37,662 nt of DNA. Origin: Thermoguttaceae bacterium. GTDB taxonomy: Bacteria > Planctomycetota > Planctomycetia > Pirellulales > Thermoguttaceae. This document shows positions 12,053 through 17,301 of this stretch, piece by piece (the first letter of the stretch is position 1; every line of letters begins with the position of its first letter). The stretch lies in NCBI GenBank assembly GCA_029975295.1, contig JARKPK010000157.1, forward strand, positions 1-37,662, written 5' to 3'. The notes beneath the pieces were generated by a model. That model saw only the letters and a program-made list of their open reading frames with translations. It searched no databases and was not told the origin of the DNA. Position numbers and translations under genes: made by a program.

Positions 12053-13831
12053 TTACACCAGCGCCTCGGCGAACTCGCGGCGGAGCACATCGACGGCTTT
12101 GGCCCCGTGCGCGCCGGCAATCACTACGTTGATCCGCACTTCACTGGTGCTGATCATTTCCACGTTCATGCCGGCCTCGGCCAAGGCGCGGAACATGCGG
12201 GCGGCCACGTCGGTGTGGCTTTTCATGCCAATGCCGAACACCGAAAGCTTCGCCACCTTGGGCGAGCTTGCCGGGGCGGGTGATCCGAGCAGCTTGGCCA
12301 AATCGGCCGCCTTGACCGCTGCGCGTTGATAATCGGCCTGGGGCACCGTGAAACTGATGTTGGCCTGCCCTTCGTTGCCCACGCTTTGAACGATCATGTC
12401 CACATTGATGCCGGCCTCGGCAATCTCGTCGAAGCATTGCGCGGCCAAACCCGGACGGTCGGGAACATCGACCAGCGTGACTCGCGCCTGGCTCTCGTCG
12501 AGGGTGATGTCTTCGATGATCAAGTCTTCCATCCGTTCGAGCCGGGCCAGCAGCTCCTTGGTGTGGTTGCGGCGGTCGGCGGCTCCGGCCCCTTCGCCCG
12601 GAGCGGCCGCGTTGGGCGGCGCAATCGACAAGCCGAACGCCTCGTGCACCGTGCGCAACGCTTCCTGCGCGAAGTCGCGGGCGACAAGCACCGAGATCTT
12701 GATCTCGCTGGTGGTGATCATGTCGATGTTGATGCCCTTCTCGGCCAAGGCCCGAAACATGGTTCGGGCCACACCCGGCTGGGTGGCCATTCCCAGGCCC
12801 ACAACCGACACCTTCGACACGTCGTCGTCATACGAAACGCTTTCGGCGCCGAGCTGCTGCGAAACTTGTTCGACCACCTTGCGGACCGACGGCAACTCGT
12901 CGCGCGGCACCGTGAAGGAAATGTCCGCCTTTCCGCCCGCCCCCACGTTCTGCACGATCATGTCCATCGGCACTTTGGCGGCCGCCACCTGGGCAAACAC
13001 CTGAGCAGCCACGCCGGGCCGGTCGGGCAGGCCGCGAAGCGTGACCCGGGCTTCATTCTTGATCACCGCGGCGCCGCACACCGGTTGATTCGGCGCCTCG
13101 GGTTGGGCCACGATGAACGTCCCCGGCACATCGCTGAAACTGCTGCGAACATGAACGGGCGTGCTGAACTTCTTGGCGAACTCGATCGAACGATTGTGCA
13201 TCACGCCCGCCCCGGCCGTGGCCAACTCGAGCATCTCGTCGTAGCTGATGCGGTTGGTTTTGCGGGCCTCGGGCACCAACCGCGGATCGGTGGTGTAAAC
13301 GCCGTCCACGTCGGTGTAGATTTCGCACGCGTCGGCGTTCAGGGCGGCGGCCAAAGCCACGGCCGTGGTGTCGCTACCGCCGCGGCCCAGGGTGGTGATG
13401 TTGAAGTCGTCGTCAATCCCCTGAAACCCCGCGGCGATGACGATCTTGCCCGATTCCAACGCGCGGCGCAATCGCTCGGTGGAAATCGAACGAATGCGCG
13501 CCTTCGTATGGGTGCTGTCGGTCACAATACCCATTTGCGCGCCGGTCATGCTGATCGCTTCGTGACCCAGCGAATGAATCGCCATGGCCATCAACGAGAT
13601 CGACACCTGCTCGCCGGTCGAAAGGAGCATGTCCATTTCGCGGGCCGCGGGCGTTTCCGTGATCTGTTTGGCCAGGCCGATCAATTCGTCGGTGGTGTGG
13701 CCCATCGCACTGACGACCACCACCACTTGATTGCCTTCCATTTTGGCGCGAATGGCTTTTCGGGCAGCCGCCAAAATCTTATTGCTGTCCGCAACGCTCG
13801 TTCCGCCGAACTTCTGCACGATCAACGGCAT
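12053..13831 (-). CDS. lysC: Aspartate kinase with four ACT domains
   Basis: Aspartate kinase phosphorylates aspartate, the first step toward lysine, threonine and methionine. The 592-residue product has an N-terminal kinase domain with KFGGTSV (7-13), VSAMGHTTDELI, the STGEQVS motif, and GRGGSDTTAVALAAAL followed by YTDVDGVYTTDPR. From about residue 265 there are two successive ACT pairs. The related sequences MDMIVQNVG and VDMIVQSVG, and INIDMITTSEIKISV and MNVEMISTSEVRINV, show that the regulatory region is duplicated. Common bacterial enzymes of this class have about 400 residues and one ACT pair; four-ACT versions are known, for example in cyanobacteria. Start: the ATG at 13831 follows AGAGGG by 8 nt, whereas the GTG two codons upstream is too close. 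Feedback by lysine and/or threonine is expected from family knowledge. Confidence 0.94.
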   Translation of the reverse strand: MPLIVQKFGGTSVADSNKILAAARKAIRAKMEGNQVVVVVSAMGHTTDELIGLAKQITETPAAREMDMLLSTGEQVSISLMAMAIHSLGHEAISMTGAQMGIVTDSTHTKARIRSISTERLRRALESGKIVIAAGFQGIDDDFNITTLGRGGSDTTAVALAAALNADACEIYTDVDGVYTTDPRLVPEARKTNRISYDEMLELATAGAGVMHNRSIEFAKKFSTPVHVRSSFSDVPGTFIVAQPEAPNQPVCGAAVIKNEARVTLRGLPDRPGVAAQVFAQVAAAKVPMDMIVQNVGAGGKADISFTVPRDELPSVRKVVEQVSQQLGAESVSYDDDVSKVSVVGLGMATQPGVARTMFRALAEKGINIDMITTSEIKISVLVARDFAQEALRTVHEAFGLSIAPPNAAAPGEGAGAADRRNHTKELLARLERMEDLIIEDITLDESQARVTLVDVPDRPGLAAQCFDEIAEAGINVDMIVQSVGNEGQANISFTVPQADYQRAAVKAADLAKLLGSPAPASSPKVAKLSVFGIGMKSHTDVAARMFRALAEAGMNVEMISTSEVRINVVIAGAHGAKAVDVLRREFAEALV

Positions 13832-14271
13832 GACCACAACCCTCTGCTGACCCCCAATGCGGCGTCAGACATCGAAATAAGGTGAAAGAGAACCCGACAA
13901 CCGAAGCCGGCGCACACCGCCAGCGCCCACCGCTCGCTGCCAGCCGCCCAACATCGCCATTGCTAATGATCCCCTCGGCAATTATTAGGCGCGATGAATC
14001 GAATATCTTATCATACCCCTACCGCTTGCCAAGTGCGAAAACCGGCGCGCGTCGCCCGTTGCCTCGCACCGGTCCCTGGCCCTCGAATCGCTTCCATTTT
14101 GTGCGCCGGCGGACGGGCGGGCAGGCCTATGCGGCCGACTGAATCGCCAACCGGGCAACAGAACGGGTTGCCCAATGGAGTCTGAGCGGATGTTCGCTGC
14201 GGCGAGCCACGTTTGATGCGGGCCTTTCGGCGGGAATCGGATGCGGTGCCGATCCGATCGCGACCTATTCA
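13832..14271. other. Intergenic region upstream of lysC
   Basis: The 440-bp gap between the ApgM-like gene and lysC has an AT-rich patch at about 13958-14016 in otherwise GC-rich DNA. It holds a promoter candidate for lysC, listed separately. I looked for a lysine riboswitch and did not see its conserved purine-rich core. No gene is supported. Confidence 0.4.
14005..14032 (-). promoter_or_regulatory. Candidate sigma-70 promoter for lysC
   Basis: On the minus strand TTGGCA (14027-14032) and TAAGAT (14005-14010) are separated by 16 nt within the AT-rich patch. This would start lysC separately from the upstream hom unit, with a leader of about 170 nt. Confidence 0.4.
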
Positions 14272-15486
14272 CTACTTTAGGGGGGCTCGGCCAACAAAGT
14301 GCTCCATCAGCTTCCAACCCTCGGCGAAAACCAGCGACGATCGGGCGGCCGACGCTTCGTCGTACGTCGCGCTGCCGTCCGGCCTGATGTCGCTTCCGGC
14401 AATGGCGGCCGGCACGTCGCCGTAGCTGTGGGTTTTGGTGCGGAGCGGGGTCGGGTGGTCGGGCGAGATGAGCAGCCGGTACTGTCCGAAGCCCCGCAGC
14501 GCCTTCCAAACGGGGGCGACGATCTTCGCGTCGATTTCCTCCAACGCCTTCACCTTGGCTTCTGCGTCGCCCTCGTGCGAGGCTTCGTCGGGCGCCTCGA
14601 CATGCACGCAAACCAGATCGAATTCGTTCAAGGCCTCAACGGCGTATCGGCCCTTGGCCGCGTAATCCGTGTCGGTGTAGCCGGTGGCGCCGGGCACCTC
14701 GATCCGCTTCCAGCCCAACAGCGCCGCCAAGCCGCGGAGCAGATCGACGGCCGTGATCATCGCTCCGCAGACGCCAAAGCGTTCACGGAACGGGGCCAAC
14801 TGCGGCGTACTGCCCAAGCCCCAAAGCCAGACGTGGGTGGCCGGCGGTTTTCCGGCTGCCATGCGCGCCGTGTTGACCGGATGATCGGCGAAAAGGCCTT
14901 CCGACGCATTCATCAGCTCGACGAGCAAATCGCTGCCCGGCCCGCGGGGATAATCGTCGAGCACGCTCTTGTCGGTCAGGTCGTGGGGCGGAGTGGTGTG
15001 GGTGTCGCGGGAAAACGGCGCCGGCCCGCCGGCCGACCGATGAATCAGCAGGTTGCGGTAGCTGACGCCGGGATAGAACTGCCAACGGGGCCCGCCGAGG
15101 CTCTGCTGGGCGGTGCGGAGCAGCTCGGCCGCTTCTTCGGTGGAGATCTGGCCGGCCGTGTAACTCTTCATCACTTGGTCTTCCACCGTCACCAAGTTGC
15201 AGCGGATGGCCCAGTCGTTCGGCCCGAGTTGCAGCCCTTGGGCGGCTGCTTCCAGCGGCGCCCGGCCCGTGTAATATCGGTGTGGATCGTACCCCAACAG
15301 GCTCAAATTCGCCACGTCGGAACCGGCGGGCAGATCGGCGGGGGTGTTGTTGGCGCGGGCAACCACCCCGGCGGCGGCAACGGCGTCCATGTGGGGAAGT
15401 TTCGCGGCCTGCAATGGGGTGCGGCCCCCGAGTCCGTCTTGAGGCTCGTCGGCGGCGCCGTCGGGGATGATAATCGCGTATTTCAT
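14272..15486 (-). CDS. ApgM-like phosphotransferase, proposed homoserine kinase
   Basis: The 404-residue product belongs to the cofactor-independent phosphoglycerate mutase family of the ApgM type (alkaline phosphatase superfamily). Metal-site motifs are intact: IPDGAAD (Asp9), AGSDVANLSLLGYDP (Ser56, the expected phosphorylated residue), DEASHEGD (300-307) and SPDHPTP (341-347), with THSYGDVP next. One subgroup of this family has been proposed as homoserine kinase, on the basis of gene linkage to threonine genes. Here the gene lies 73 nt downstream of hom and upstream of lysC, and no GHMP-type thrB is in the window. I therefore favour homoserine to O-phosphohomoserine, with phosphoglycerate mutase as the alternative. 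The ATG at 15486 is preceded by GAGGTG. The in-frame extension upstream has no family similarity. Confidence 0.85.
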   Translation of the reverse strand: MKYAIIIPDGAADEPQDGLGGRTPLQAAKLPHMDAVAAAGVVARANNTPADLPAGSDVANLSLLGYDPHRYYTGRAPLEAAAQGLQLGPNDWAIRCNLVTVEDQVMKSYTAGQISTEEAAELLRTAQQSLGGPRWQFYPGVSYRNLLIHRSAGGPAPFSRDTHTTPPHDLTDKSVLDDYPRGPGSDLLVELMNASEGLFADHPVNTARMAAGKPPATHVWLWGLGSTPQLAPFRERFGVCGAMITAVDLLRGLAALLGWKRIEVPGATGYTDTDYAAKGRYAVEALNEFDLVCVHVEAPDEASHEGDAEAKVKALEEIDAKIVAPVWKALRGFGQYRLLISPDHPTPLRTKTHSYGDVPAAIAGSDIRPDGSATYDEASAARSSLVFAEGWKLMEHFVGRAPLK

Positions 15487-15559
15487 AACACCTCGAAGAA
15501 AGGAAAACCTTCCGCGGTTGCGGCTTGGCCCGGCCGTCGCCGGCGGTCGTCGCCGACGA

Positions 15560-16861
15560 TCAGTCGCGGACTCGCAATCGCACACTGCCGGCGTGAACGC
15601 AGGGCAGGCTCTCGATCTCTTTCAACGCGGCATCGACCACGCCGTTGGGCGCCGCGTGGGTCATGATGATCAGCGGCACCGTGCCCGAGGCGTTGTCGCC
15701 CGCCTCGTGCTGGATGATCGAGGCGATAGAGATGTTCCGCCGCCCGAGGATGCCGGCGATTTCCGCCATTACCCCGGGGCGATCGTCCACGTTGAACCGC
15801 AGATAGAACCGTCCGGAAATGGCCGCCGGCTGCCGTGTGGCCACTTGGGCGGGGCGTTGATCCGACCACAATTCGAGCGCCCGGAAGGTGAGCGTGGTGC
15901 GGCCGACCACGGTGCTGATCAGGTCGGCGGTTACGGCCGACGCCGTCGGCATTTGGCCGGCGCCCTGGCCCTGGAAGAACACGCGTCCCACCACGTCGCC
16001 CACGACGCGCACGGCGTTGAACGCGCCGCGAACCTCGGCTAACGGCGAACCGTGGCGGACCAACGTGGGCGACACATGGAGTTCCAGGCCCTCGGGGGTC
16101 AGATCACCGACGGCCAACAGCTTGATGCGGTAGCCCAGCTCCTGAGCGAAGCGAATGTCGGCGATATCGACGGAGTCGATTCCCACCCGCGGAATCTCGC
16201 GCCAACTGAGCCGCGTGCCGAAGGCCAGATGGGCCAAGATGGCCAGCTTTTGGGCGGCGTCGGAGCCGTCCACGTCCATGGCCGGATTCGCCTCGGCGTA
16301 GCCGAGCCGCTGCGCCTCGGCCACGGCCGAACGGTAGTCGGCCTGCTGCTCCTCCATCCGCGTGAGAATGAAATTGCTCGTGCCGTTCAGGATTGCGTGG
16401 ATCGAAAGAATCTGATTCGCCGTGAGCGACTCGCTCATCGCCGCGATGATCGGAATGCCGCCGGCCACCGCCGCTTCGAAGGCGATTGTCCGCCCCAGGG
16501 CCCGTGCGCGATCGAACAGTTCCGGGCCGTGCTCGGCCAGCAGCGCTTTGTTGGCGGTGACGATGTTCTTGCCCGCCTCAAGCATCTTCAGCATGATCGT
16601 CCGTTCGGGCTCCAGTCCGCCGATCAGTTGCACCACATGCTCGATCGACCGATCGGAAAGCACCGACTCGACATTGTCGGTCAGCAGACCATCGGGCAGG
16701 GCCACATTCCGCGGCCGAACCAGGTCTTTGTCCACCACGCGAACCAATTCCACCGGCCGGCCCGCATGCCGCGCAATCCGCGGGCCCTGTTCCAAAAGCA
16801 GCTTCGCCACGCCGGAGCCGATCGTGCCGAATCCGATAATCGCCACCTTCACCGGTTCCAT
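15560..16861 (-). CDS. hom: Homoserine dehydrogenase
   Basis: Hom reduces aspartate semialdehyde to homoserine with NAD(P)H, committing carbon to threonine and methionine. The 433-residue product has an N-terminal Rossmann fold (VAIIGFGTIGSGV, with GFGTIG at about 10-15). It also has the TANKALLA segment and the catalytic-domain motif EAAVAGGIPII followed by ILNGTSNFIL. AEANPAMDVDGSDAAQKLAILA supplies the active-site Asp/Lys region. A C-terminal ACT domain (about 355-430, FNVDDRPGVMAEIAGIL) implies allosteric control, usually by threonine. The ATG at 16861 has GAGG 6 nt upstream; an in-frame ATG 17 codons earlier lacks this. The gene leads the block hom, ApgM-like, lysC. Confidence 0.95.
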   Translation of the reverse strand: MEPVKVAIIGFGTIGSGVAKLLLEQGPRIARHAGRPVELVRVVDKDLVRPRNVALPDGLLTDNVESVLSDRSIEHVVQLIGGLEPERTIMLKMLEAGKNIVTANKALLAEHGPELFDRARALGRTIAFEAAVAGGIPIIAAMSESLTANQILSIHAILNGTSNFILTRMEEQQADYRSAVAEAQRLGYAEANPAMDVDGSDAAQKLAILAHLAFGTRLSWREIPRVGIDSVDIADIRFAQELGYRIKLLAVGDLTPEGLELHVSPTLVRHGSPLAEVRGAFNAVRVVGDVVGRVFFQGQGAGQMPTASAVTADLISTVVGRTTLTFRALELWSDQRPAQVATRQPAAISGRFYLRFNVDDRPGVMAEIAGILGRRNISIASIIQHEAGDNASGTVPLIIMTHAAPNGVVDAALKEIESLPCVHAGSVRLRVRD

Positions 16862-17301
16862 AAGAAACCTCGGTTCCAAGAGTTGCCGTCCGATCGAATG
16901 AGAATTGTTCATCGTAGGTTACCGTCACGGCGATCGTCAAGGCCGCGGCGCCCTAGCAGGCTGGGCGATTGTCAGCGTAGAATAAGGGTTTCGATTTGTT
17001 CGGGCGGTTGCCGAGCGGGCGGCTCGGTGCGCAGTGCGGCGGCGACCGACGCACCACGATTCCGCCAACCAACAGCCGCGATCGGTGCGAGAAACGGCGG
17101 CCAGAGGCCGAGGCGCGCTGCGATCAAGATCGATCGGGCTGGCGCAGCGGCCGGGTTGCATTGCGCATCTGCGGGGCGATCCGACGACCGGTTGGTCCTC
17201 CGGCCCGCTTGGGCCGACGGTCGCGTTCCGCGGTTTTGTTCCGCTTGGGTCGGCCCTTGAACAGTGTTGCACTGAGACACAACTGAGGCGCGCAGTCAAT
17301 C
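16862..17301. other. Divergent intergenic region between hom and the ABC-2 operon
   Basis: The 440-bp divergent gap carries a good promoter candidate for hom (listed separately). The plus-strand ABC gene has no clear promoter or Shine-Dalgarno here. No gene is supported. Confidence 0.4.
16911..16940 (-). promoter_or_regulatory. Candidate sigma-70 promoter for hom
   Basis: On the minus strand TTGACG (16935-16940) is followed after 18 nt by TACGAT (16911-16916). The -10 ends about 50 nt before the hom ATG, a normal leader length. Of the promoters listed here it has one of the better -35 boxes. Confidence 0.5.

Follow-up and report, generated by a model that had tools for sequence, protein, structure and literature searches.

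The ApgM-family gene that lies between hom and lysC on a contig of a Thermoguttaceae bacterium probably encodes a homoserine O-phosphorylating enzyme that replaces the GHMP-type kinase ThrB and would act by an alkaline-phosphatase-superfamily mechanism. We base this reading on the gene order in the window (the whole stretch of 37,662 nucleotides that we analysed), the TIGR02535 score of the protein, a genome in which thrB and thrB_alt are absent while thrC and a second ApgM of phosphoglycerate mutase (PGM) type are present, the mutual exclusion of TIGR02535 and thrB across the phylum, and a set of diagnostic residues. The idea of a homoserine kinase in this family is already known, since the window protein passes the cut-off of the existing TIGR02535 profile, 'proposed homoserine kinase'. 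According to PMC7311316, TIGRFAM curators made the proposal and PEP was named as an example of a donor; Bacteroides thetaiotaomicron BT2402 mutants were rescued by threonine, and BT2402 failed to complement an Escherichia coli thrB mutant (a personal communication quoted there). In the GapMind survey of 148 prototrophs described in the same paper, only one step was more often of low confidence than homoserine kinase, which was so in 29 organisms; TIGR02535 was present in 15 of these. A gut-genome survey named the protein ThrB2 and found thrB lacking in 278 of the 300 genomes with ThrB2 (PMC9026213), and the zinc sites of BT2402 are described as conserved (PMC9765024). In the open-licence literature we found no report of homoserine-phosphorylating activity for any TIGR02535 member.

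The three genes are read from the minus strand in the order hom, ApgM-family gene, lysC, with spacings of 73 bp and then 434 bp (Table 1). The initial annotation had described this linkage, together with intact metal-site residues in the ApgM protein and a lack of thrB in the window. All three observations were confirmed: D9, S56, D300, H304, D343, H344 and H353, which we take to be metal ligands or the nucleophile of the superfamily, are all present, and no thrB over cut-off was found even genome-wide. We took the ATG at 16861 as the start of hom, the longest open reading frame of which extends to 16912. The ApgM-family gene encodes 404 amino acids from the ATG at 15486, a start that coincides with position one of the family profile; a longer frame from a GTG (to 15585) overlaps hom, and its added residues fall outside that profile. 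Promoter-like matches numbered three in the 3.6-kb region, against 0.8 (s.d. 1.0) expected. It is plausible that hom and the ApgM-family gene form one transcript; co-transcription of lysC is uncertain, given the 434-bp gap and the promoter-like matches within it. Nothing in an Rfam scan of the window exceeded the gathering score, and thus lysC is not preceded by a lysine riboswitch of any known family. As both the aspartate kinase and the homoserine dehydrogenase carry ACT domains, the cluster is probably feedback-regulated.

Table 1 Features of the hom–ApgM–lysC locus
Feature	Position in window	Strand	Evidence
hom, homoserine dehydrogenase with C-terminal ACT domain	15560..16861	-	NF004976, 485 bits (cut-off 205); Pfam Homoserine_dh and ACT
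ApgM-family gene, TIGR02535 'proposed homoserine kinase'	14272..15486	-	531 bits (cut-off 446); best candidate for the homoserine O-phosphorylating enzyme
lysC, aspartate kinase with several ACT domains (NF005656/PRK07431 type)	12053..13837	-	753 bits (cut-off 657); ACT_9 in four stretches
Promoter-like match before hom	16911..16940	-	Consensus match only
Two overlapping promoter-like matches in the gap between the ApgM-family gene and lysC	14005..14039	-	Consensus matches only

The window protein scored 531.1 bits with TIGR02535 (curated cut-off, 446.3), which places it in that family by score, and 487 bits (cut-off, 320) with TIGR00306, the ApgM subfamily model that covers both ApgM groups. 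It also matched the equivalog NF003242, 'cofactor-independent phosphoglycerate mutase', at 537 bits. Pfam assigned Metalloenzyme and PhosphMutase domains, not a GHMP kinase. The AlphaFold2 model (mean pLDDT, 94.8) was closest to the solved structure 2zkt (Z score, 44.4; 370 residues; r.m.s.d., 2.7; 29% identity). Among the best 80 of 561 loci, the nearest relatives from named genomes were 71–72% identical and came from metagenome bins that bear the labels Rhodopirellula, Thermoguttaceae, Pirellulales, Planctomycetaceae and Planctomycetota, which marks the organism as a planctomycete.

Genome-wide searches covered 5.01 Mb in 190 contigs (99.99% complete). No GHMP-type thrB (TIGR00191) exceeded the cut-off, and we rejected a diverged GHMP ThrB because the sole weak match was IspE; thrB_alt gave no match. 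One full shikimate kinase was found, together with a 24-residue match just above the cut-off, so there is no obvious spare copy for a replacement of the Desulfovibrio type. Threonine synthase (thrC) was over the cut-off on a separate contig (C48), beside dapB, which we identified from its sequence. A second ApgM, of the PRK04135 (NF003160) type, is encoded on contig C117 (599 bits), and its family and motif suggest that it is a PGM. Neither GpmI nor GpmA was found over the cut-off genome-wide; two GpmI matches lay far below it and look like sulfatases, and the GpmA match below the cut-off is a histidine-phosphatase-family protein. The initial annotation had proposed the ApgM-like protein as the homoserine kinase of this organism and had named a canonical thrB together with the lack of any other PGM as the combination that would speak against it. 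The genome has neither part of that combination, thrB being without a match over the cut-off and a second ApgM being present, and the proposal is further supported by the exclusion of thrB across the phylum and by the residue switch described below.

We compared the 93 TIGR02535 proteins of the phylum sample with 31 PGM-type rows (29 proteins plus the solved chains 2zkt and 3idd). The seven catalytic positions (DSDHDHH in the window protein, at 9, 56, 300, 304, 343, 344 and 353) were invariant in 93/93 TIGR02535 proteins. The motif DRR[AV]GR was present in all 31 PGM-type rows and in none of the 93 TIGR02535 rows, the window protein included. Numbered along the 2zkt chain sequence (one above the numbers in PMC9765024), R226 is replaced by W and K302 by E in every TIGR02535 row, and D167 by P in 89 and by A in 4. 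Five charged positions in total (these three and the two arginines of DRR) are thus fixed in PGM-type proteins and kept in 0/93 TIGR02535 proteins; the glutamate E297 of the window protein is K in every PGM-type row. Profile alignment of the cap domain to GpmI gave a usable result for PGM-type proteins solely near the metal core and, at a probability of 0.1, failed for TIGR02535; we therefore infer the pocket, with DRR[AV]GR, R226, D167 and K302 as the putative 3-PG-binding residues of PGM-type ApgM. With the catalytic set unchanged, the loss of positive charges and the gain of an acid would suit an acceptor that is no longer anionic but zwitterionic. A change at the calcium site (E41 to R38 in BT2402; PMC9765024) was discarded as a marker because the column varies in both groups. 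We also observed that a glutamate replaces a histidine metal ligand of the solved ApgM structures in 24/31 PGM-type rows, the second ApgM of the genome (L003) included, and this substitution in the likely PGM of the Thermoguttaceae bacterium possibly reflects a different metal preference.

Across the phylum, TIGR02535 and thrB exclude each other. In a sample of 234 genomes, drawn evenly and at least 90% complete, TIGR02535 was over the cut-off in 93 and thrB in 55, and no genome had both (Fisher P = 5.6e-15 by genome, a value inflated by kinship). Lowering the thrB limit to 120 bits raised its count to 66 genomes, still with no overlap. Counted by family, TIGR02535 was found in 20/64 and thrB in 21/64, with none shared (P = 8.8e-5, still inflated by kinship). 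Neither gene was over the cut-off in 86/234 genomes, or in 75 with the thrB limit at 120 bits, and the absence of thrB alone therefore proves little in this phylum; these genomes are likely to have further homoserine kinases or to be threonine auxotrophs.

Gene neighbourhoods link the family to hom. Counting neighbours on the same strand within 800 bp, we found hom directly upstream in 43 of the 92 TIGR02535 loci besides the window, lysC directly downstream in 16 and both in 15. With hom upstream in 43/92 loci, from 13/20 families, the linkage is more than chance. The hom gene was not directly upstream in 49/92, including all 24 sampled loci of f4, a family of the window's class, some of these 49 being near contig ends. 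Among loci from named genomes (best 80 of 561), and counting those with enough flanking sequence, hom was upstream in 43/73, lysC downstream in 39/67 and both in 27/61. In the 28 genomes for which both paralogues were retrieved, hom adjoined TIGR02535 in 12 and PGM-type ApgM in 0 (sign test, P = 0.0005). At 20 of 40 thrB loci, at least one of hom, thrC and lysC lay on the same strand no more than 1.5 kb away. The order hom-thrC-thrB-lysC occurred at nine of these 40 (L160, L162, L167, L168, L170, L221, L223, L225 and L227; six of the nine are one family), which puts thrB between hom and lysC, as the ApgM-family gene is in the window.

In the tree, TIGR02535 proteins and three sub-cut-off relatives with all seven residues formed one side of a branch with 99/96 support. 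A sister clade of TIGR02535 (L203–L210 and L213; 98/86 support) keeps W220, W222 and R337 and has lost three to seven of the seven metal or nucleophile residues (for example, TSNHDHG, AEALTHR and SEAAGEY compared with DSDHDHH); because of this loss, its members look like pseudoenzymes. The genomes of this clade had thrB over the cut-off in two cases of nine (G223 and G107) and not in the other seven. At 5/9 loci (L203, L205, L207, L209 and L210, from families f33 and f44), the degenerate ApgM gene is the immediate upstream neighbour of valS, the valyl-tRNA synthetase gene, on the same strand (valS was assigned by Pfam for three loci and by tblastn for all five), and its product is possibly a ligand sensor or a partner protein.

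The equivalog match to NF003242, the fold shared with solved ApgM and the intact metal and nucleophile residues would all be expected of a phosphoglycerate mutase that stands beside hom by chance, but we consider this very unlikely and rejected it as the main reading, because the genome holds another PGM candidate and the charged positions have changed. The five PGM-type charged residues are kept in no TIGR02535 protein, and another PGM candidate over the cut-off was listed in 88/93 TIGR02535 genomes. Of these 88, 33 had a second ApgM (at least 354 bits), 34 of the remaining 60 genomes had GpmI, 12 of the next 26 had GpmA and 9 of the last 14 had a second ApgM. Three of the 12 GpmA cases are weak (a 68-residue match of 87 bits in G177, an in-frame TGA in G066 and two pieces in G090), and each of these genomes also has a listed second ApgM. 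The other five genomes (G165, G089, G037, G008 and G045) have a second ApgM match without a listed score; the second copy in G165 (L152) bears the PGM-type motif. GpmA (386.8 to 402.8 bits) is present in each of the seven TIGR02535 genomes in which ApgM gave a single match (G053, G135, G148, G207, G219, G152 and G226). We note that the GpmA-like frame of G066 (L183; G066:C1:281456-282151) lies just after the TIGR02535 gene of that genome, and its one in-frame TGA points either to gene decay or to an error in sequencing.

A different role in threonine synthesis, as a regulator, a partner of Hom or an enzyme of another phosphoryl transfer, would leave the homoserine kinase to an unrecognised protein. 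The failure of BT2402 to complement E. coli thrB fits such a role, as do the 75 to 86 genomes of 234 with neither gene, in which undiscovered homoserine kinases may exist, and the persistence of the sister clade despite its lost catalytic residues. We nevertheless regard this role as unlikely, because the strict exclusion of thrB is more readily explained if the protein takes over the reaction than if it has an accessory function, and the catalytic residues are fixed in 93/93 proteins. Phosphorylation of homoserine by ThrH of the HAD family, which we take to be profile TIGR02137, or by a dual-substrate shikimate kinase is very unlikely here. Desulfovibrio has a homoserine kinase that resembles shikimate kinase, but an essential shikimate kinase from Phaeobacter failed to complement E. 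coli thrB (PMC5764234 for both), and the one full shikimate kinase of the Thermoguttaceae bacterium is presumably needed for chorismate.

If the window protein is the homoserine O-phosphorylating enzyme, D9, D300, H304, D343, H344 and H353 would hold the metal ions that activate S56, which would take a phosphoryl group from the donor to form a phosphoserine intermediate and pass it to the gamma-hydroxyl of homoserine, the amino group of which would meet E297. The O-phosphohomoserine would then go to threonine synthase, the gene for which is on C48. We infer the phosphoserine intermediate, homoserine as the acceptor and the role of E297. As to the phosphate donor, PEP is the named example, and phosphoglycerate and ATP are also candidates. 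That TIGR02535 enzymes are phosphoserine-enzyme homoserine phosphotransferases with a non-ATP donor, such as PEP or phosphoglycerate, is a proposal for which we see an even balance; if true, threonine synthesis would be coupled to intermediates of glycolysis, and the failure of BT2402 in E. coli could reflect a missing donor or metal.

To the known proposal we add a genome that withstands the combination named against it, phylum-wide exclusion of thrB, evidence that TIGR02535 is dispensable as a PGM, and a residue signature. With a near-complete genome that lacks the alternatives searched for (thrB, thrB_alt and a spare shikimate kinase), and with exclusion across the phylum, the TIGR02535 proposal can be tested directly; the five switched positions are targets for mutants. 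If our reading is true, the 'phosphoglycerate mutase' label (NF003242) is wrong for the TIGR02535 group, this planctomycete, a member of a little-studied group, makes threonine with a repurposed relative of an enzyme of sugar breakdown, and one part of the phylum uses the TIGR02535 enzyme and another part ThrB.

The window protein shares with the known TIGR02535/NF003242 proteins (BT2402 and ThrB2) its score, intact catalytic residues, linkage to hom and complementarity to thrB. In most gut Bacteroidetes, thrB2 stands with ThrC and a fused Asd-Hom (PMC9026213), whereas the window has hom, the ApgM-family gene and lysC, with thrC elsewhere. Compared with the archaeal ApgM phosphoglycerate mutases (2zkt, 3idd and 3kd8), the fold and catalytic metal site are alike, but the DRRAGR motif, R226, D167 and K302 are replaced. 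The second, PRK04135-type (NF003160) copy has the superfamily and the ApgM subfamily (TIGR00306) in common with the window protein, yet PRK04135-type proteins fall on the opposite side of a 100/100 branch from TIGR02535 and hom was beside them at 0/20 loci. GHMP-type ThrB (TIGR00191) has the same proposed reaction and the same place between hom and lysC, but belongs to an unrelated family. The shikimate-kinase-like homoserine kinase DvMF_0971 also replaces ThrB and is likewise of an unrelated family, and it complements E. coli thrB (PMC5764234).
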